Positions 3,247 to 24,955 of a stretch of DNA of 64,000 nucleotides are shown here, piece by piece. The notes beneath the pieces are model-generated. The model had not been told where the DNA came from and did not search any database. It worked only from the letters and a program-made list of their open reading frames with translations. This DNA is from Telopea speciosissima (lineage: Eukaryota > Streptophyta > Magnoliopsida > Proteales > Proteaceae): positions 8,192,862 through 8,256,861 of the forward strand of contig NC_057918.1 in NCBI RefSeq assembly GCF_018873765.1. The letters run 5' to 3'. The position numbers and the translations under genes were made by a program. Position 1 is the first letter of the stretch. Each line of letters opens with the position of its first letter.

Positions 3247-6200
3247 CTACTCAAGCATCATCACCTGAGATACAGGTGATGATTCCCTGCTGCTAAGATC
3301 CTCCATTTTAGCATTTTCAAACTCTTCATTAAGCAATTCTCGAATCCTCTCTCTAAGTCCTGAGGCCTCTTCAGGTTCGAACCAGCGTTCGCCAAACTGA
3401 AGAACTAGAAGACATTAACGAAAGGAAAACAGTAGGACAAATGCCAATAGCTTTGAACTTGGAATATCTTACCATTGGTATATTTTTCTTCTTTATCCTT
3501 TCAGGGGCCTCCTCGATGAACCGCTCCATGAAGTAAAGCACAAAGATGCCACAATCATAGTCATTTTTCTGTTGGGGAACCTGCAAAGGATCACAGGGGA
3601 ATCCCATAAGCAAAAACGTAAACCGGAAATTATTAAGTTTGCACTATGAGAAATGAATACTTCAGAACTACCTCACTGACTAGAATGAAAATACAACAAT
3701 CTTGGGTAAAACAGAAAGGAAATAGAACAAAAAATAGCCCCTCATACAAACAGAAGTAAAGCCTGAAATAACAACAGCAGTGGAAAGGCAAAAGCCACAG
3801 AAAAACATAGAACTAGGTGGCACTGATTATAATTTAACATAAAGCCAACACGGAAACTAGACCTAGCACTCCTTGATTGGGCAAAAGATGCATAGCACCT
3901 AAACGTCTATTTATTGTTCTTCCATTGGTAGGCCGGAAATGTGTATAGGAAGCCACATAACAAGTAAAGAAATACAAAAGTATGTTACATATACATTAAT
4001 AAGGGAGAAAAAAAGATATGCAAGGAATATAACAGCTAAGAAAACAATTGTGAGAAAAACAAGCACAAAACTTGGGATACATGCCACACATCTTCCAAGA
4101 TTTTTACCATGATTCTTCTCTCAGTGATTTTATCTTGAAGGTTTCTCCACTCTCCATCTCCAATGGAAGGGTCCAGAGGTGCAACTTCTTCACTTACGTA
4201 TTTCCATTCTTCTTTTAAAAATCTGAAAAACATAAAGTATAGAAATTTAATCTTTATACAAACAAAACACAATTGAATTAGCAAATATGATTCCAAATTA
4301 ACAAGTACTATAAAAAAATCCCATGAAAGGGGCCATCAGCAGGTATGAGACATGCTTTCACAGGATCCTGGGAGGGATGGATGGTAGCTGGTCCTAACCT
4401 CCAGCATTTTTTCTATGAAGAAGCCAATCTTAAACTTAACCTGTGTCTTCACACTCACAGTTCTTTTTGTTTCTCATTTTTTCAGGTATAGATCACCAGA
4501 TAGTACATTAACACTCACCAATACACTTTAGCTCACCTTAATTCTCTCATGCTCGTGCATACATAATATGCCAAGGATGTCATACGACATAATGGTCACC
4601 ACCCAGATTTTATAGAAGAATAACTAAAACCAAATAGATTGCCAAAATCACATAATGAAGTTCAAACAAATATAAACGGATAAAAATCGATAGAAAGCGT
4701 AGTTGCGCTAAACTCTGATAGTATCAAAGAGTTTATAGGAATGGATAATAATAACTCATAACTGCACTGCAAGAAAGGGCTTCCATGGTCTCACCTTCTT
4801 ATGTTCTCAAAAATTTCACTACTTGTGTGGCATCCCAATGAATCCAAATGGAGGAGTATAATATGTCCCGATTCCTCATCCTTCTCCGGGTTACAAATAA
4901 TTAGCAAGCTCCAGTGCTTTCTGATTCCATCAGAAACCAGAAAAAAATAAATAAATAAAGGTCAAGCATAAAGTTGACTGGCACCCATTTCTGCATGAGA
5001 TAAGAAATGGAAATGAGGGGTTAAAACACGGGGAATGGGAAGAAATGCAATCAATACCATCTATAAACTTCCAATCCTTATAGGCAGCTCAGGAAAAACA
5101 TCAGTTCAGGGATCAAAGTTTTAAACCAACTCTTTTACAACCTTTGAAATGATTGCTTTACAAAAAAGGAATGATTATTATAAGAATATCAACGCTTAGA
5201 TGACCAGTAAGGGAGAGAAGAAAACCGAGAGAAGGGAAAAGCTAGAACACGATAGACTAGACTGCTCTATCGTGAACTGCTATAATCCTTCATATAAAGT
5301 AGAACTGACTCTGAGTAGGAAGTCTACCAAGAGTCAAAAGACTTGTTACAATGAAAGAAAAGTAAACAACTACCTAGTCAAATAAGCCTAATTAAAATAG
5401 TAAAGAGAACAACTCTAATTACAATTGGAAAGAGAAATAATAAATAAGCTATTAGACATGATCCCATGGAACATGCATGGAACACAACCCCACTTTTTAA
5501 CACTCCCCCTCAAGCTGGAGTATATATATCTCCCATACCCAGCTTGGAACCAGTAAGAAATGCAAGCCGGAATAGTGCCTTTGTGAACATATCACAAATG
5601 AAGTCGAAATCAGCTTTGCATAACCGCATTTCTCACAAAAATGACAATCGACCTCAAATGCTTAGTTCTCTCGTGAAAGACCAGATTACTGGCAATATAA
5701 ATCATAGCTTGATTATTACAATACATCTTCATACGTTTATCAACTGATAACCCCAATTCTTATATGAGAGATTTCAACCACATCAATTTCATTACAGTAT
5801 CTGTCATAGCTCTATACTCGATCTCTACACTTGATCGAGCCACTTATATTCCAAGTCACAAGATTACCACCAACAAATGTGCAATATCTAGTAGTTCATA
5901 TGTGATCATTGATAGCAACAGCCCAATCAGCATCAAAGTAACCCACAATATCAATGTGATAATGGCATCGATAAACAAGACCTTTGCCAGGAGCACCTTT
6001 AAGATACCTTAGAATGCGGCAAGCAGCATCCCAGTGAGCTTGTTTAGGATTCTCCATAAATTGACTAACAAATCTAATTGCAAAGGAAATATCAGGACGA
6101 CTAACATTCAAATAGATAAGTTCCCAAACCAGCCTTTTGTACTAATGTTTATCCATAAAATCTTTGTCATCACACGCCCCATGCTTCAAATTAGGATCCA

Positions 6201-9200
6201 AAGGGTTATCAACAGATTTACATCCCAACATGCCAGTCTCAGACAGAAGATCAAGCACATACTTCCTCTGAGACAAATTGACACCCCTCTTGCAACGAAC
6301 AACTTCAATTCCTAAGAAGTATCTAAGCATCCCCAAGTTCATCTAAAAATGCCGATGTAGATATGCCTTGACATTTTCGATACTAGAAGAGTCATTACCA
6401 GAAATAATAATATCATAAACGTACACAACAAAAATTACAACCTTAACCCCATGATGACGAAAAAATAAGGTGAGTCAGAGATGCACCGAGTGAATCCATA
6501 ACCACCAATAACTTTACTGAAGTTATCAAACCATGCATGAGGAGATTGTTTTAGCCCATAAATCACTAGTGAAGACAACACACTTTGGACACATTCTCCC
6601 CTTGAGCAACATAACCAGGAGTTACTCCATATAGACCTCTTCCTCAAGATCACCATAAAGAAAGGCATTCTTGATAACTAGCTGAAACATGGGCCAATAA
6701 GGTTAACATCTAGCGAGATAAGAACACAAACAAAATTTAGATGAGTCACAGGGGAGAGAGAGTCTCAAAATAGTTGACACCATACATCTAAGTATGTACT
6801 TTGGCAACCAAGAGAGCTTTCAGTTGCTCAACTAATAAATCTAGTAGACACTTTATTGTATACACCAAACGACACCTCACAAGCTCCTTTCCCGAGGGTA
6901 AGTCAGTAAGACGCCATGTTCGACGACCCAACAAAGCATCCATCTCAACATTCATAGCATTAGATGCGATAAAGCTTCCTAGTACTAGTAGGCACACACA
7001 TAGTAGAGAGAGAGAAAGCAAAATTGTGAAGTAAAGGTGGAAAATGAGACACAGTAACAAATTGAGAAATAGGATAAATAATATGAGATTGTTGAGTACA
7101 AGTGGAGAAATAAGAAAATCAGCATCCATCTGACAACTCTCAACAAAGAAGTATGGTATAGTTTCAAAATATGTAACATCGATCCTTGTCAGTAGATAGA
7201 TCCAGTAGAGTATTACAGCAGCTATTTGAGTTACTGTTGCATGTATTATATGGTAAGGAAACCCTAGATTGATTAGGGTTTCATAGATTAGGCAGAACAG
7301 CAGAATAGGTTGATGAAGGTCCTATTTGGACAATCAAACCAGAAATTGAATATGAGAGACGGTGAGATCAACAAAGCTCTGATACCATGTAATAATATCA
7401 AAGCTTAGATGACCAGTAACAGAGAGAAGGAGGAGAAAAGAAAAAACCGAGAGAGGGGAAAAGCTAGAACATGATAGACTAAACTGCTCTATCGTGAACA
7501 GCTATAATCTTTTATACAAAGTAGAACCAACTCTTAGTAGGAAGTCTACTAAGAGTCAAAGACTTCCTACAATGAAAGGAAAGTAAACAACTACTTAGTC
7601 TAATAAGCCTAACTACAATAGGAAAGAGAATAATTTTATTTACAATAGGAAAGAGAAATAATAACTATGTCATTAGACATGATCCCATGGTACACTATTC
7701 CAAGGAACACCACACTGTACACGGTTTAACAATTATCCTACATTTTGCATTTCTAAAAGGAGACCCATGCAAACAGTTCAAAGTAAATTCAGTTGGCATA
7801 ATTGTCTCTCAGCATAAAAAGAACTACTGCTTCACCAAGAAAAATGCCCAACATATGCTACACTATTAATCTAACAACATATCAGTGGCAAGTGATTTGG
7901 AAAATGGAAAAATGAAATATAATCCCTGCTTTCCTTTTTATACTTACATGTATTTCAGTCTGTAAGCATGCCTTTTAAATATCAATCAGGCATTCGAGAG
8001 TCCAGTTTTTCTGGACAAACACCTGTTTTTGCCATGTGGCAAAGTCAGATGGGGCTGAAATTTTGTAGACAGGTAGACCCCAAGGGCCCTCTGCTCACAT
8101 GTCAATTTTCAGCACAAATGGACTTTTCCAAGTGGCAAATAAAGCGTTGAAAAATTAAGGACCACCAAAATAATGCACAGGAAGGTATGCCCTTACATGG
8201 GAGGGCAAATGATTGAATTTGGTGGTCTGATATTTTACAAATGACCAATCTAGATCATTACCTACACATATCCAATGGCTGGAATTCCAAATCACTCTTA
8301 CACATGGCAAAACTAGCAGTGCCCGTCCACATATTCCCTCTAGACGTGCCCAAACAAAGACATTTTTACTGGCAAATAATTTGAAACAACTTACTTTTCA
8401 TGTATCGGCAAAAGTATGTATGCCTTCTGAAAAATATTGACACCTTTCCACCACCTTCTGAATTTCACGAATGCATCCTTCTGACTCCTCTACAATAAAA
8501 ACAGAAAATAAGTAATACATAAGAATGACTTTCCAAAAATCAAGGTCTTTAAAATGCAACAGTTGGAATTTCATAACATACCAAAGAATTATTACCAAAC
8601 TCTGAGAAGGTGTGATAATTCAAATGCACTTGCTTAAGACCACCATGGGTAGAAACCATCTAATGGATCTCACCAATGTTCAATGAGAGACTTGGTGAAT
8701 TTTTTTCAACTGGTAACAAATAGTTAATGACTAATGAAAATCAAATTGGCCTAGTACTGTATTCCTTTGTTCAGACGAGGAATAACAAAACGGAAAATCT
8801 TGGTCCAATCAATGCCAAGCTTCTTACTTTATAGACATACCAATGAATGATAGATCACTGAGTCAGAAGTTGGTACACAATAGAAACCATCTAATGGATC
8901 TCACCAATGTTCAATGAGAGACTTGGTGAATTTTTTTCAACTGGTAACAAATAGTTAATGACTAATGAAAATCAAATAGGCCTAGTACTGTATTCCTTTG
9001 TTCAGACGAGGAATAACAAAACGGAAAATCTTGGTCCAATCAATGCCAAGCTTCTTACTTTATAGACATATTTATAGACATACCAATGAATGATAGATCA
9101 CTGAGTCAGAAGTTGGTACACAATTAATGAAAATTATAAAATAATTGTAACAAATCATGCCAACTTGGATACCTAGTACATGTAAGCAGAGTTGCATATC

Positions 9201-15200: not shown

Positions 15201-18200
15201 TAAATGATGCAAAAGAAGGTACCTTTCTAGTCCACGAATCAAGGGAACTCTGGAGCAGAGAAGATTTCCTCCTAGTCAAGATTAAAAAGTTAAAAAAAAA
15301 GTTCTATTCAAGACATAAACAAACCAGAGGTTATAGAACAAACAACCTACATTAGTCATGAGAAAGAAAACAAAAGTTCAAATGGCTACATAGATCCATA
15401 AGTGATACATGAAATCACCATTTATACATGACCACAAAATACATCAAAGTAGATCTATAAAAAGTAATACAAGAAGGAATGTTGCAAAACACTAGGACTT
15501 TAAGGTATTGAGCACAATTTATTTTCAGCATATAACTCAATTCTTACCTTCCTGCGGTTGTATTCAGTCACTGTAGTTCTAGGATGTTTTACCTTTTAAG
15601 AGCAATATACTTTCTTTCTTCTATCTGTTTTTTAATACAAATGGCACATGGCTTTGTTTCCTTCTTTTTTTTCTTTTTTTTTTTTTTTGGGGGGGGAAGA
15701 GAAGTGGGATTTTCTTTTTAGAACTCAATCTGAAACATTAAACTAGGTTATTTAAACAAAATTGTAGCTTCATTTTCTTATGTTTTTTGTATTATTTTAA
15801 CTTTTACTACCTTTGAAAGAATCAGAAGAATAAAACAAAGTATTCCTATTGATCCTATCTTCTGCACTTTTTTTATGTCACAATTCAGGCTGTCCAGAAC
15901 AAGCAGTTGCAATAAGAGCACCAATTGCTAGGACGAAGCACTTCAATGAACATCCTCTTTTTCTAACATTGGTTTAAATAGGCTTCACATGGTGCAACAA
16001 CAGCCATGTATATCAAAGAAGCAGAGGAAGTGCCGAAACAAGTTATAAAAAACTCGGAACCATTGTTACCAGGAAGTTTAGAAAAAGAATGGTGGGTATC
16101 AGTTCCAGCCCCCTATGGTGTACAGAAGGAAACACCATGACCTTAATTCGAGTGACTCCCATGTTTAATTGGAAGCTTTATGAAGATATGGGGCCCACGA
16201 GGGAGTTGGGATTATTATGTGGCTTAGATGTGAGCCTTGTTTTCCCTAACAGTGCCAAAACTACAAGATCCTGCATAAGAGAGAGAGAGACTGTTGACCA
16301 TAATTTTGACCAAACATTCCCCATAATTCCAACAGACAGACCAGCAAAATAGCACAATCATCACAAAACTATAGATGAAAGAGGTACATTAAAAATACAA
16401 TTAAACAATCATAACATTTTCAGTGCAATAGCAGCAGCAACAGCAGTGAAACAAAAAACAGTTGGGAGATAATTCGCAACCAAATCAGCAAATTATGTAA
16501 CACTGTAATATTGAAAGATCAAACTATAATTGAAATAAAAAAGCTTACTTCTTGAAGAAATGGCCAGACAAGTTTTCCTCCTGATGATCAAGAGAACTGG
16601 GAGCAATTCCCTTTTGATCACCTTTTTTTTTTTTTTTTTTTTTGATAAAAATTCCCTTTTGATCACCACCATTTGAGCATCGCTGTCTATCTTTATCATG
16701 ACAGCCAATATTCATAAACTTAAAGGGTGAATCTCTTGAAGACACTAAACGTGACTGATTTTCCTCATGTATCAAACGTCCATTCTGTCTAGCATCTTGG
16801 CGGTCACCAGAGTGTAAATATGAAAATTCCTTAGCAAATGCGTCTCCTCCAACACGAGTACTAGCATCTGACTGATTACAGAAAAGAGAAGCAATTTAGT
16901 TGCTCAGTTACAATAGAGACCAAAACAATTGTGTGCATAAAATTGAAAATCCCTTCATACCTTCGTTTCTAAGATTTCAATAAAACAAGAGGTAAATTCT
17001 GACTTTGCAGTGACTTGAGATGATTGAAACACGGAATTGGAACCACTGCATGCTCCTGAAATCCTCTCAGTATCAGAAGTTCACAAAATTGAAACCAAAA
17101 ACCTAAATAACATAAGTTCCTCCAACTAACAATATTCTCAAAGTCCATTCTTCAATGAATCAATGGTGAGACAACCAAAGCCCAGCATATATCAATTGAC
17201 ACAGTTTGCATTTAGCCAAACAAACATAGCCTAAATGCAAGCTAGCCACAAGAGAAAGCAGCAACTCAACAAAGTGAAGTTAGGACAGTCTAAGTTTGCA
17301 TTTGATAGAAGCATTCTCTCTCTTTTTTCTATTTCTTTTTTGAATAAATTGCATTAGTCATGTAACGTCATTGGAGAACCCAACATATGAAAGTATAGAT
17401 TAGATATGATCTGTTTGAGCATGAGGTATGAAATCATCCCATTCTGTTTCATATAACAATTGATCGTTTGGAAAGGCATCACAAGCAGGATGACGACAAG
17501 TAATAAATGGAAATAAGCTCCTTCTTGAAATCTCAGTCCAAGAGCAAGGACGAGGTTGAAGTAGTTAAAGTCGCCTTATTTTCATGTTTGCTATAAAGGA
17601 CAAGATTGAAGTAGAGGTGGAAAATGAGGCCAAGAGCAAGGACGAAATCAAGAACACCCCACAAGAAACCATCAAGATCCAGTATGTTCTTAAAGAGATA
17701 GACTTTGTGTTACCACCTCGTTTTTTCAACACAAAAGCTCCCAAGGTTGAAGACTTTATTCCTAACATCCACGAGCTGCCAAAGTTTTGTTATGGTTTGA
17801 AGACGGATGTTCACCATATAAAGTTGATTCCTTGACTTTGCAAAACTCAAGGTCGAGTTTCTCAAGCCGGGTAGAATTGATGCAGTTTTATCACCTAAAT
17901 GTGCTTATTTTATTAGAAAATAACCTTTGGATTGGGTTATGTATTTGTTGGCCTGTTGGGCCTTTGATCCAATGTGTTCTCATTGTAATGGGCCTATAAT
18001 ATGGATCGAGGCTAGGTGGGATGCTTAGTCATCAATACTCAAGTAAGTACTCCATTGTTTTCTGCAACTCCATATCCTGTCCGATGATTTCAATTACAAT
18101 GTTTTTTTGAATTAATTCGATTCCGCTACAATCTAATCCTTGTCGCTAATATCTGACTGCCATTCATATACACATTCATGACTCCATTAAAATTCTGCAA

Positions 18201-24200: not shown

Positions 24201-24685
24201 ATAACTAAAGAGAACTATACGATAATCCTTGCGTACGGTTCATGAGCATCAACACAAGTAAAAAAAAAAAAAAAACAGAGGCAAGCGTAGTAGCTTTGAG
24301 ACTTGAAATGACGATCACTATATAAATGCATGGAACAAACAAAATCAGTGCCCCACGAAGCAACCTAATGGGAAAATGGACGAAAGGATAGTAAGAAGAC
24401 CTGCAATTGAAGGAGGCTTCTGCGATTTTTCTCGTGTTCGAGACGCTGGATTCTAATTCGAAGCTTAGCACCCTTGTCGGACAATTTGGGAGAGAGAATG
24501 TTGACGTTTTTTGCTAATCTGCAAATCGTTCCATCCAGGTTATGATCAGAAATGATTTGCAAGTCTTCACTCTGAGAGGATTGCTCGTCACGCACGACAT
24601 CCAGTTCTGCTGGATCGTCATCGTTATCGAGAATGACGTTCCAGTCGATAACCAGTGGTTTCTTTCCCTCCTTCCCTCCATCCAT
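3247..24685 (-). CDS. ULP1D: SUMO protease of the ULP1D/OTS1 - ULP1C/OTS2 type (C48 cysteine peptidase)
   Basis: Deconjugates SUMO from proteins (and matures SUMO precursors) in the nucleus; Arabidopsis OTS1/2 act in salt and growth signalling. Coding exons, 5' to 3' on the minus strand: 24685-24401, 20483-20432, 17055-16961, 16871-16549, 15271-15223, 11694-11579, 11329-11234, 9366-9264, 8489-8395, 4920-4795, 4222-4108, 3580-3473, 3396-3247. All have AG/GT borders and matching phases; the total is 1713 nt (570 aa). The start is the ATG before DGGKEGKK, giving the family's VIDW motif near residue 12; an upstream in-frame ATG at 24850 is less likely. The C48 domain covers about residues 310-550: HFFNTYFY, FRRWWKGVNIF, catalytic His407 (HWSLLI), Asp431 (HLDSLG), Gln489 and Cys495 (NDYDCG), all intact. 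Length fits the family (about 570-585 aa). The acceptor of exon 6 is ambiguous and exon 4 has an in-frame insertion. ULP1C and ULP1D cannot be told apart here. Confidence 0.93.
5179..5502 (-). repeat. 3' LTR of the copia element
   Basis: About 324 bp, matching 7388-7731 along most of its length. On the plus strand it begins TATAAGAATATC, a mutated TG end, and finishes TTTTTAACA next to the polypurine tract. It differs from its partner by scattered substitutions and small indels, so the insertion is not recent. Confidence 0.9.
7388..7731 (-). repeat. 5' LTR of the copia element
   Basis: About 344 bp, bounded on the plus strand by TGTAATAATATC and GGTTTAACA. The tRNA-Met type primer-binding site abuts its inner edge, which fixes the minus-strand orientation. 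The ATTAT target duplication follows at 7732. Confidence 0.9.
8650..9124. repeat. 231-bp tandem duplication in intron 8 of the SUMO-protease gene
   Basis: The segment beginning TAGAAACCATCTAATGGATC at 8650 is repeated from 8881 with only about one substitution noticed (AAATTGG against AAATAGG), plus a 12-bp extra TTTATAGACATA near 9070 in the second copy. Both copies lie wholly in the intron between exons 8 and 9, so the coding sequence is untouched. The near identity points to a recent duplication. Confidence 0.9.
9594..11112 (+). mobile_element. TRIM-like, internally deleted gypsy-type LTR element (contains a nested hAT element)
   Basis: Two LTRs begin alike (TGATGCAGATCATA at 9594, TGATACAGATCATA at 10055) and end alike (GATTCCGCATTA at 9921 and 11112). 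AATAG target duplications flank the element (9589-9593, 11113-11117). A primer-binding site (TTTGGTATAAGAGC, about 9922-9935) follows the 5' LTR. Only 133 bp of internal DNA remains; it joins a short ATG-led piece to the end of a polyprotein (LIPRLFKIQGRP) just before a GGAGAAA polypurine stretch. The 5' LTR is about 328 bp. The 3' LTR is longer because the 5' copy is deleted internally and the 3' copy holds a nested element at 10556-10958. It lies in intron 7 of the SUMO-protease gene, opposite in orientation. Confidence 0.82.
10556..10958. mobile_element. Non-autonomous hAT-like element nested in an LTR
   Basis: Ends carry TAAG(A/G)GTGTCAA inverted termini (inner left copy near 10564; right end TTGACACCCTTA). 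Imperfect 8-bp target duplications are seen: GTTATACC before and GTTATATC after. The body is rich in CCGAACCG and its complement. The uninterrupted site survives in the other LTR near 9759 (AAGTCATATCCTTTTC), which confirms the insertion. It shares terminal motifs with the elements at 24956 and 52247. Confidence 0.75.
11667..11694 (-). repeat. 27-bp tandem duplication at the acceptor of SUMO-protease exon 6
   Basis: On the minus strand the unit GGCCAGAGTCACCAGACTAT plus GAAACAG occurs complete at 11694-11668 and again, partly, from 11667 (GGCCAGAGTCACCAGAC). Each copy is preceded by an ACAG acceptor, and both are in frame with TVVLVDEED. Use of the distal or proximal site adds or drops nine residues (GQSHQTMKQ). 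Confidence 0.8.
11877..12572. mobile_element. Non-autonomous hAT element
   Basis: A 696-bp insertion bounded by a perfect 8-bp duplication CTATCTAG (11869-11876 and 12573-12580). The termini are CAATGTTTAAGGTTTC on the left and CAAGGTTCTAGGTTTC as the reverse complement of the right end. A CAAGG-type terminus with an 8-bp duplication is the signature of the hAT superfamily. No transposase ORF is present. It sits in intron 5 of the SUMO-protease gene. Confidence 0.88.
12983..13950 (-). other. Unexplained GC-richer stretch in intron 5 of the SUMO-protease gene
   Basis: About 13690-13950 is clearly richer in GC than its surroundings. Read on the minus strand it has a purine-rich run (GCAGAGAGAGAGAG) and a CACGTG G-box near 13917, like a plant leader. 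Further down at about 13000-13080, after a pyrimidine-rich stretch ending TGCAATTGTTTTTTG, a frame reads FYEAVAAGLAGMAVMKATVQ to a stop. I could not build a phased gene model and recognise no family. It could be a nested non-coding transcript, a captured gene fragment or chance. Confidence 0.25.
14245..14345. repeat. Foldback MITE arm
   Basis: GAATGTTCTCCCCAGCACAGG, followed by a CAGGCACATGGGCAGCCTG palindrome and a GGTGGTCATTGCACCCACCCC centre. This matches the complete element at about 27046-27183, but the right arm is not obvious here, so it is probably truncated. Confidence 0.55.
14590..14935. repeat. GC-richer MITE-like repeat block
   Basis: Contains opposed copies of GGGTGTGAGCATCC / GGATGCTTGTGAGCGCTCCC-type arms and repeated GTGAAATGACC(T/A)CCC motifs like those in the other foldback elements of this window. 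The ends are not fixed. Confidence 0.45.
16605..16667 (-). mobile_element. Retroposed poly(A) tail with 18-bp target-site duplication inside coding exon 4
   Basis: On the plus strand AATTCCCTTTTGATCACC occurs at 16605-16622 and again, identically, at 16650-16667. Between them are 21 T followed by GATAAA. On the coding strand this is a short TTTATC stub plus A21 flanked by 18-bp direct repeats, the hallmark of a severely 5'-truncated LINE-machinery insertion. The added 45 bp equal exactly 15 codons, so the reading frame survives and gains IKKKKKKK plus a second GDQKGI. Confidence 0.85.
17560..18145 (+). mobile_element. Ty3/gypsy-type 3' end remnant (pol tail plus LTR)
   Basis: An open stretch 17584-17835 (FVLPPRFFNTKAPKVEDFI...) ends at a pol-LTR junction resembling the one at about 9985-10060 (TTGATTCCTTGACTTTGCAAAA, then GGGTAGAATTGATGCAG). 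LTR-like sequence with GGGCCTTTGATCCAATG follows and ends around CGATTCCGCTACA. No 5' LTR is recognised. It lies in intron 2 of the SUMO-protease gene. Confidence 0.5.
18146..20400. other. Intron 2 sequence without recognisable features
   Basis: AT-rich intronic DNA of the SUMO-protease gene. A CTATAAAAAGAGG motif near 18462 may be an LTR promoter relic. I see no exon that keeps phase and no further repeat I can delimit. Confidence 0.5.
20484..24400. other. Intron 1 of the SUMO-protease gene (3.9 kb)
   Basis: Long AT-rich intron. Short (TA)n near 23069-23088. Open frames on either strand are short, low in complexity and without recognisable motifs. No delimited transposon seen. Confidence 0.6.
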
Positions 24686-24955
24686 TTCCACGCCCAACGG
24701 AAGCAAAGAAATGAAGAAGACACCTTCAACACTGCCGCACGCAGGTCGGTTGGAATCTGTTTGATGATTCTCTCCGGTTTCTCTCTGCGTCTTTCTTACT
24801 CGAAGACGGGGGAAATTGAAAAAAGAGTCCGAATTGGAAGAAGGAAACAAAAATGACAGAAGCAGAGTGAGTAAACCGGGCGGTCATTTGTCGTTATTTT
24901 GGAGGGTAAATTAAAGTCGTTGATGTTTATGAGACTTGTCATAGTGACATGTAGT

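Follow-up and report, generated by a model that had tools for sequence, protein, structure and literature searches.

The window, by which we mean the whole 64,000-nt stretch of Telopea speciosissima DNA analysed here, lies on contig C3 and carries on its minus strand a gene whose exons, with the insertion found in one of them, are listed in Table 1. When the protein hand-joined from seven exon pieces was compared with Pfam, it matched Peptidase_C48 (PF02902) with an E-value of 3.6e-40 and 138.6 bits (cut-off 20.7), and the catalytic-region motifs HWSL, HLDSLG and PQQKNDYDCG were found. A Pfam scan of ten single ORFs, among them the insertion exon and the ORF at 24365..24883, gave no match above the cut-off. 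The gene is thus predicted to encode an Ulp1-type catalytic domain downstream of the insertion exon, which upholds the view of the preliminary description that the host is a SUMO protease. Like Arabidopsis OTS1/OTS2 (ULP1D/ULP1C), the window gene has a C-terminal Ulp1-type C48 domain after a long N-terminal half; unlike them, it carries the extra FIKKKKKKKGDQKGI in that N-terminal half. Its putative placement in the OTS1/2 subgroup goes by motifs, and we take its first exon and catalytic sequence to resemble those of OTS1/OTS2, the N-terminus included.

Table 1. Features of the SUMO-protease gene and of the insertion in its exon (window coordinates).
Feature	Position	Strand	Basis or remark
ORF with probable first coding exon (MDGGKEGKKPLVIDW... 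from about 24685)	24365..24883	-	
Preceding exon, ends ACGAAG/GTATGA, in-frame join to host exon	16961..17055	-	Sequence reading and C8 alignment
Host exon, 323 nt (278 nt without insert), phase kept; splice sites also in C8 duplicate	16549..16871	-	Alignment to C8 duplicate, from DNA alone
5' (upstream) TSD copy	16650..16667	-	C8 duplicate has the site once
TTTATC, six-nt body; sampled L1-type LINEs here have this hexamer at their 3' ends	16644..16649	-	
A21 (T21 on plus strand), poly(A) tail, seven lysines	16623..16643	-	
3' (downstream) TSD copy, GGTGATCAAAAGGGAATT on coding strand	16605..16622	-	Abuts A-tract directly
C48 catalytic exon block, HWSL...HLDSLG (His, Asp)	4794..4916	-	
C48 catalytic exon, VPQQKNDYDCG (Gln, Cys)	3473..3580	-	Sequence reading, Pfam
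Last coding exon, FGERWFEPEEAS...MMLE-stop	3247..3396	-	Sequence reading

The preliminary description had reported an 18-bp direct repeat flanking 21 T and GATAAA within an exon, and we recovered exactly this arrangement at the same coordinates. Two copies of AATTCCCTTTTGATCACC, identical at 18/18 positions, enclose T21 followed by GATAAA on the plus strand, and the coding strand accordingly reads GGTGATCAAAAGGGAATT-TTTATC-A21-GGTGATCAAAAGGGAATT, that is, target-site duplication (TSD), TTTATC, A21, TSD. A repeat search of window positions 16500-16800 returned this 18-bp pair, with a spacing of 45, as the only direct-repeat family; the edges of the repeat are unambiguous, the bases flanking the two copies being different. 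Relative to a single 18-mer, the net gain is 45 bp or 15 codons, FIKKKKKKKGDQKGI. The minus-strand translation around the insert reads ...NGGDQKGI FIKKKKKKK GDQKGI APSS... in a frame that is open from 16895 to 16545, the lysines being encoded by AAA codons, and both the length of the A21 tract and the claim of a kept frame depend on the exactness of one assembly, in which a homopolymer error is possible. An AG acceptor precedes position 16871 and a GT donor follows position 16549 of the host exon, whose length is 2 mod 3 both with and without the insert.

Two hallmarks of LINE machinery are present at this site: a TSD within the usual range of ~5-20 bp, with identical copies here and an empty site in a duplicate gene on contig C8, and a poly(A) tract in sense orientation that touches the 3' TSD copy. 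Reverse transcriptase and endonuclease ORFs are absent from the insert, which consists of six nucleotides and a tail only; it is a product of LINE machinery and not an element itself.

The empty site in a duplicate gene

The duplicate gene, located near C8:11067.6 kb, has a matching exon with AG and GT at identical borders and an open frame, and the insert is absent from it. It contains GGTGATCAAAAGG once, followed by an equal number of bases, and the protein alignment of the two genes shows one clean 15-residue gap at the insert. The 45-bp gain of 15 codons described previously, comprising the poly-lysine run and the repeated GDQKGI, therefore corresponds exactly to the residues that the C8 duplicate lacks. 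The preliminary description had also named, as evidence against an insertion, a relative with the same 15 residues and no direct repeats; the C8 duplicate, which comes from the same genome and is the sole relative compared, is not such a gene. From this comparison, the insertion appears to be derived in the window copy. Precise deletion between the repeats would leave C8 looking like an empty site; the identical TSDs and the pure A21 tract, however, favour a young insertion over such a deletion. Furthermore, the two window copies are identical over the final five bases of the 18-mer, three of which differ in the C8 duplicate, indicating that the doubling postdates the start of divergence between the two genes.

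Between the window gene and its C8 duplicate, the insertion exon has a dS of 0.20 and a dN/dS of 0.97, against a dS of 0.22 and a dN/dS of 0.44 for five other coding blocks pooled; one of these five, the FLKEEW block, is unconstrained when taken alone (dS 0.16, dN 0.17). At 0.97, the stretch that received the insert is without protein-level constraint. Roughly a third of insertions keep the frame by chance. Given a dN/dS near 1 in the host exon, we prefer a neutral, tolerated insertion, which would be the simpler reading of its effect on the gene: 45 bp happened to keep the frame, and they fell in an unconstrained stretch. We infer that the insertion exon is expressed. The lysine run might conceivably serve as a basic patch, as a nuclear signal or as a place where ribosomes slide, all of these being hypothetical roles.

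In 80 kb of C8, a stretch that includes C8:11118001-11128000 (L017), we did not find the last two C48 exons, which carry the catalytic Cys and the C-terminus; the duplicate retains the HWSL and FLKEEW exons. The C8 gene may therefore be truncated, which would perhaps leave the window copy as the sole complete one of the two. Though perhaps truncated, the C8 duplicate is still valid as an empty site.

Two other features of the window gene were noted alongside this comparison. A tandem duplication of ~240 bp with 94.7% identity lies within it at 8650-9124, and in the C8 duplicate both of its copies are matched by a single stretch. Positions 5500-7330, upstream of the HWSL exon, hold decayed retrotransposon remains recognised by eye, which we take to be Copia-like, and pieces of them match dispersed stretches around the C8 gene.

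Recurrence of TTTATC-A(n) in the genome

Across the whole 823-Mb genome, TTTATC-A14 occurs at 360 places compared with 95 for the reversed pattern, so that composition alone predicts about a quarter of these places (95/360). We sampled the first 100 listed of the 360 places (contigs C1, C2 and the start of C3) and used as a control the first 70 of 100 listed exact-A18 tracts, unselected for the hexamer. TSDs were detected by ungapped local alignment (+1/-1.5) of the 36 nt after each A-run with the 66 nt before it, with the match starting at most 6 nt from the A-run and scoring at least 9, and with mismatched locus pairs as the null. A score of 9 was reached by 37 of the 100 TTTATC places. The body, measured from the TSD to the A-run, was 3-8 nt long at 33 of the 100 places (expected: 0.09) and 11-13 nt long at three (expected for all longer bodies: 0.5), and no body exceeded 13 nt within the 66 nt examined. 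One locus, L160, has a 1-nt "body" with a match that extends into the hexamer and was omitted from the body-length test.

Among the A18 control tracts, 6/70 reached a score of 9, with bodies of 6, 7, 10, 11, 17 and 22 nt. Bodies of 3-8 nt were thus found at 33/100 TTTATC places versus 2/70 control tracts (Fisher p 5e-7), and the ratio of short to long bodies was 33:3 versus 2:4 (p 0.004, L160 omitted). These two comparisons tie the class of short-bodied insertions to the hexamer. The six TSD-flanked control tracts (L072, L077, L080, L091, L102 and L112; bodies of 6-22 nt) end in CTTATC, GGTTACC, ATTCTAACCC, AAATATTTATT, ...ATACCC and a C-run ending CTC. As they were met in an unselected set of 70 tracts, near-bodyless retroposition is not confined to TTTATC.

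The 33 class members share a single anatomy: TSD, 0-2 extra nucleotides, TTTATC, poly(A), TSD. Their TSD pairs are identical in 18/33 cases, and by similarity of the 75-nt flanks over the 100 loci they fall into 32 groups; L132 and L169 have near-identical TSDs and dissimilar flanks. Between the TSD and TTTATC there are no extra letters in 10 members, and otherwise T (8), G (5), A (3), C (3), AT (2), TG (1) or TA (1), while bodies of 3 or 5 nt reflect a TSD match that runs into the T's. In 17/33 members the TSD match begins 1-5 nt after the A-run. If the 33 in the first 100 listed are extrapolated to all 360 tracts, there would be roughly 120 copies in the genome with tails of at least 14 A.

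The 63 places where a near TSD was not detected comprise 9 LINE ends and 54 others that fall into none of the three classes (bodyless by this test, longer body with a near TSD, recognised LINE end). Composition alone would explain roughly one in four of all places; the remainder may be eroded copies or retroposons of other kinds. When TSDs were sought up to 1400 nt upstream in the first 30 loci, some scores of 9-11 were obtained, which is near chance at that width, and we give these far matches no weight.

A T-rich priming site (TTTT/AA on the primed strand) is a preference of L1 and not a strict requirement. We analysed the nick in the 16 of 33 members whose TSD starts at the A-run, omitting the 17 with unclean edges. 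At least two A's precede the TSD in 8/16 of these clean-edged members compared with 12.7% of control positions (p 3e-4), an enrichment that would follow from priming on poly(A) by T's of the nicked strand. There are no A's at the nick in 6/16, as is also the case in the window copy, whose nick context, AATGGT/GGTGATCA, does not match an L1-type T-run priming site.

LINE 3' ends and the proposed mechanism

Recognisable LINE 3' ends account for at least nine of the 100 TTTATC places (L028, L043, L045, L052, L143, L147, L156, L176 and L177). When 54 loci of 3 kb each were compared, L043 and L052 were found to share two long collinear matches within 1.4 kb, one of which reaches the tail. Pfam identified zf-RVT and RVT_3 in L043 and RVT_3 in L052, and tblastn a zf-RVT-like stretch in L052; judged by their sequences, these domains represent the C-terminal part of a plant L1 ORF2. 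In L045, tblastn found a more distant RNase-H-like stretch (35% identity) upstream of TTTATC-A14, and the six others were assigned as LINE 3' ends by sequence. Eight of the nine ends (not L045) have the GGAACnTTGTTCC hairpin or a variant form (degraded in L028), followed by TTAATAAA in 5/8 (variants in L043, L176 and L177), mostly five variable letters, and TTTATC-A(n). In all-against-all comparisons (54 loci over long upstream stretches and 100 loci over 75-nt flanks), any repeat that extended to the tail in both members of a pair was a LINE 3' end, with the exception of one older repeat (L042, L057, L146 and L157) that itself bears the insertion.

The TTTATC of the window insert is the hexamer of these nine LINE 3' ends, an agreement over six nucleotides only and among loci chosen by TTTATC; by themselves, six nucleotides are too few to place the window copy in a LINE family. 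The constancy of TTTATC among the LINE ends is partly built in, since TTTATC was the search key. LINE-like ends that were not selected on it terminate in TTATC (a second LINE in L043) or TTTTCC (L108, recognised by motif only). Universal conservation of TTTATC at LINE 3' ends was also considered, and was weakened by this ascertainment and by L108. On the reverse strand of L143 (50-180), a 3' end with hairpin, TTAATAAA and TTTATC-A15 occurs twice in tandem, 72 nt apart, and the second copy has TTTACC instead of TTTATC.

We consider it very probable that the insert arose by tail insertion of an L1-type LINE, in which the tail and six nucleotides of the body were copied in sense orientation, the target site was duplicated, the frame was kept and the result was tolerated. 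Under this proposal, a poly(A)-tailed L1-type LINE RNA would have been engaged at the exon by a LINE endonuclease/reverse transcriptase, and target-primed reverse transcription would have copied the A(n) tail and then only the last six body nucleotides (UUUAUC). First-strand synthesis would have ended there, with immediate second-strand synthesis and filling in of the staggered break, to yield TSD-TTTATC-A21-TSD. The earlier proposal of a sense, almost fully 5'-truncated insertion by LINE machinery is thus borne out by the insert anatomy, the empty site, the recurrence of that anatomy at 33 places in 32 groups and the L1-type LINE bodies that end in the matching hexamer and A(n), all of which are directly observed. 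The six nucleotides would derive from a LINE RNA rather than from another RNA with that end, and the stop at a fixed point would be a property of the enzyme or of the template.

Repair of a staggered break would provide a different origin for the same structure: fill-in at nicks 18 bp apart would make the tandem duplication, and a filler, TTTATCAAAA, would be copied either from another locus or from this one, where the repeat contains ATCAAAA, and later be stretched by slippage. Small tandem duplications are a known outcome of breaks, on which Vaughn and Bennetzen and Schiml et al. have reportedly worked in plants; the insert and its own repeat both contain ATCAAAA, and the nick site in the window is not LINE-like. 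However, the hexamer with poly(A) was seen at 33 of the sampled places, which form 32 groups and differ in their TSDs, and ATCAAAA occurs in 0/16 clean-edged TSDs. As local templating would be unable to give one filler at unrelated sites, templating from the shared ATCAAAA was dropped once the hexamer had been found at such sites, and we regard repair as extremely unlikely. The donor could instead have been another poly(A) retroposon, a SINE or a processed mRNA ending in TTTATC, that was mobilised by LINE machinery and cut to six nucleotides. So short a body is compatible with a non-LINE source, and the control tracts with other ends (GGTTACC, ATTCTAACCC, AAATATTTATT and others, in 6/70 A18 tracts) indicate that short-bodied TSD insertions can end differently. 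Against this stand the single hexamer at a fixed position in 33/100 places and the identity of the tail-reaching repeats as LINE 3' ends, bar the insertion-bearing older repeat, and such a donor seems to us very unlikely.

An assembly artefact, in which the tract or its length is wrong through homopolymer error so that the frame is lost, or in which the site is misassembled, also merits consideration, as an A21 tract is hard to sequence and the comparison draws on a single assembly and no reads. Such an artefact would not make an 18-bp TSD together with the hexamer found at 33 sampled analogues, and we judge it quite improbable; a possible length error of one or two A's would affect only the claim about the frame and is compatible with insertion by LINE machinery.

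Returning to the L1-type LINE origin, we propose that TTTATC-A(n) may be a discrete, recurrent micro-retroposon formed because an L1-type reverse transcriptase halts right after the hexamer beside the poly(A), a model that we hold to be evenly balanced between right and wrong. The hexamer could be the part of the template held by the enzyme, with synthesis aborting at its edge, or a short UUUAUC-A(n) RNA could be the template and be copied to its end, with 0-2 nucleotides added; both options fit the data. Within this fixed-stop model, the window copy would be one more member of the class that was accepted as coding sequence, to which we likewise give an even chance. For human L1, it has been proposed that 5' truncation is caused by a premature switch to second-strand synthesis (PMC7617806), and for the R2 enzyme the non-templated addition of a few nucleotides at the template end has been documented (PMC8857657). 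The 0-2 extra letters could have arisen by such addition or from variable parents. A strong form of the former, in which the nucleotide before TTTATC (T, G, C and A all occur) is non-templated, was rejected given that LINE ends vary there too.

Relation to known insertions

L1 truncation points are usually described as scattered along the element, whereas 33 of the 37 cases with a near TSD described here stop 3-8 nt from the tail. In its TSD, 3' poly(A) and 5' loss, the insert is otherwise like 5'-truncated L1 copies made by target-primed reverse transcription (PMC7617806, PMC4859970). A homopolymer insertion within an exon is known from human NF1, where Wimmer et al. (2011, PMC3219598) ascribed a poly(T) insertion in exon 25 to an Alu, L1 or processed pseudogene that had been severely truncated. 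That insertion is a single pathogenic case of ~120 bp with poly(T) on the coding strand and altered splicing, whereas the window insert is 45 bp long, in sense and in frame, and belongs to a recurrent class defined by a fixed hexamer. In plant L1 LINEs, a 3' stem-loop presumed to be recognised by the enzyme is kept in one lineage, and other lineages were proposed to require only poly(A) (Ohshima 2013, PMC3747384). The motif described here differs from that work in being a terminal hexamer beside the poly(A), and the string TTTATC is absent from the main text of PMC3747384. Among the titles and openings of abstracts that a narrow search of open-access literature listed, there was no description of a six-nucleotide class with a fixed stop. 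Homopolymer insertions in exons and plant L1 3' ends are therefore known, and the fixed-stop class is, within this narrow search, apparently new.

How LINE reverse transcription ends, and how 5' truncation comes about, is an open question, and a truncation fixed within 1-2 nt would be a natural readout of early pausing or release by the plant L1 enzyme. In addition, proteins could in this way acquire short, lysine-rich, TSD-duplicated segments from retrotransposition with no recognisable element left behind, and repeat annotation would likely miss insertions that are this close to empty.

The older dispersed repeat mentioned above has TTTATC-A(n) at the identical place in all four of its copies. 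Two of these (L146 and L157) belong to the class and two (L042 and L057) fall below the score, and all four are copies of one event. Given this identical position, the insertion seems to predate the spread of the repeat, which could help to date the class.
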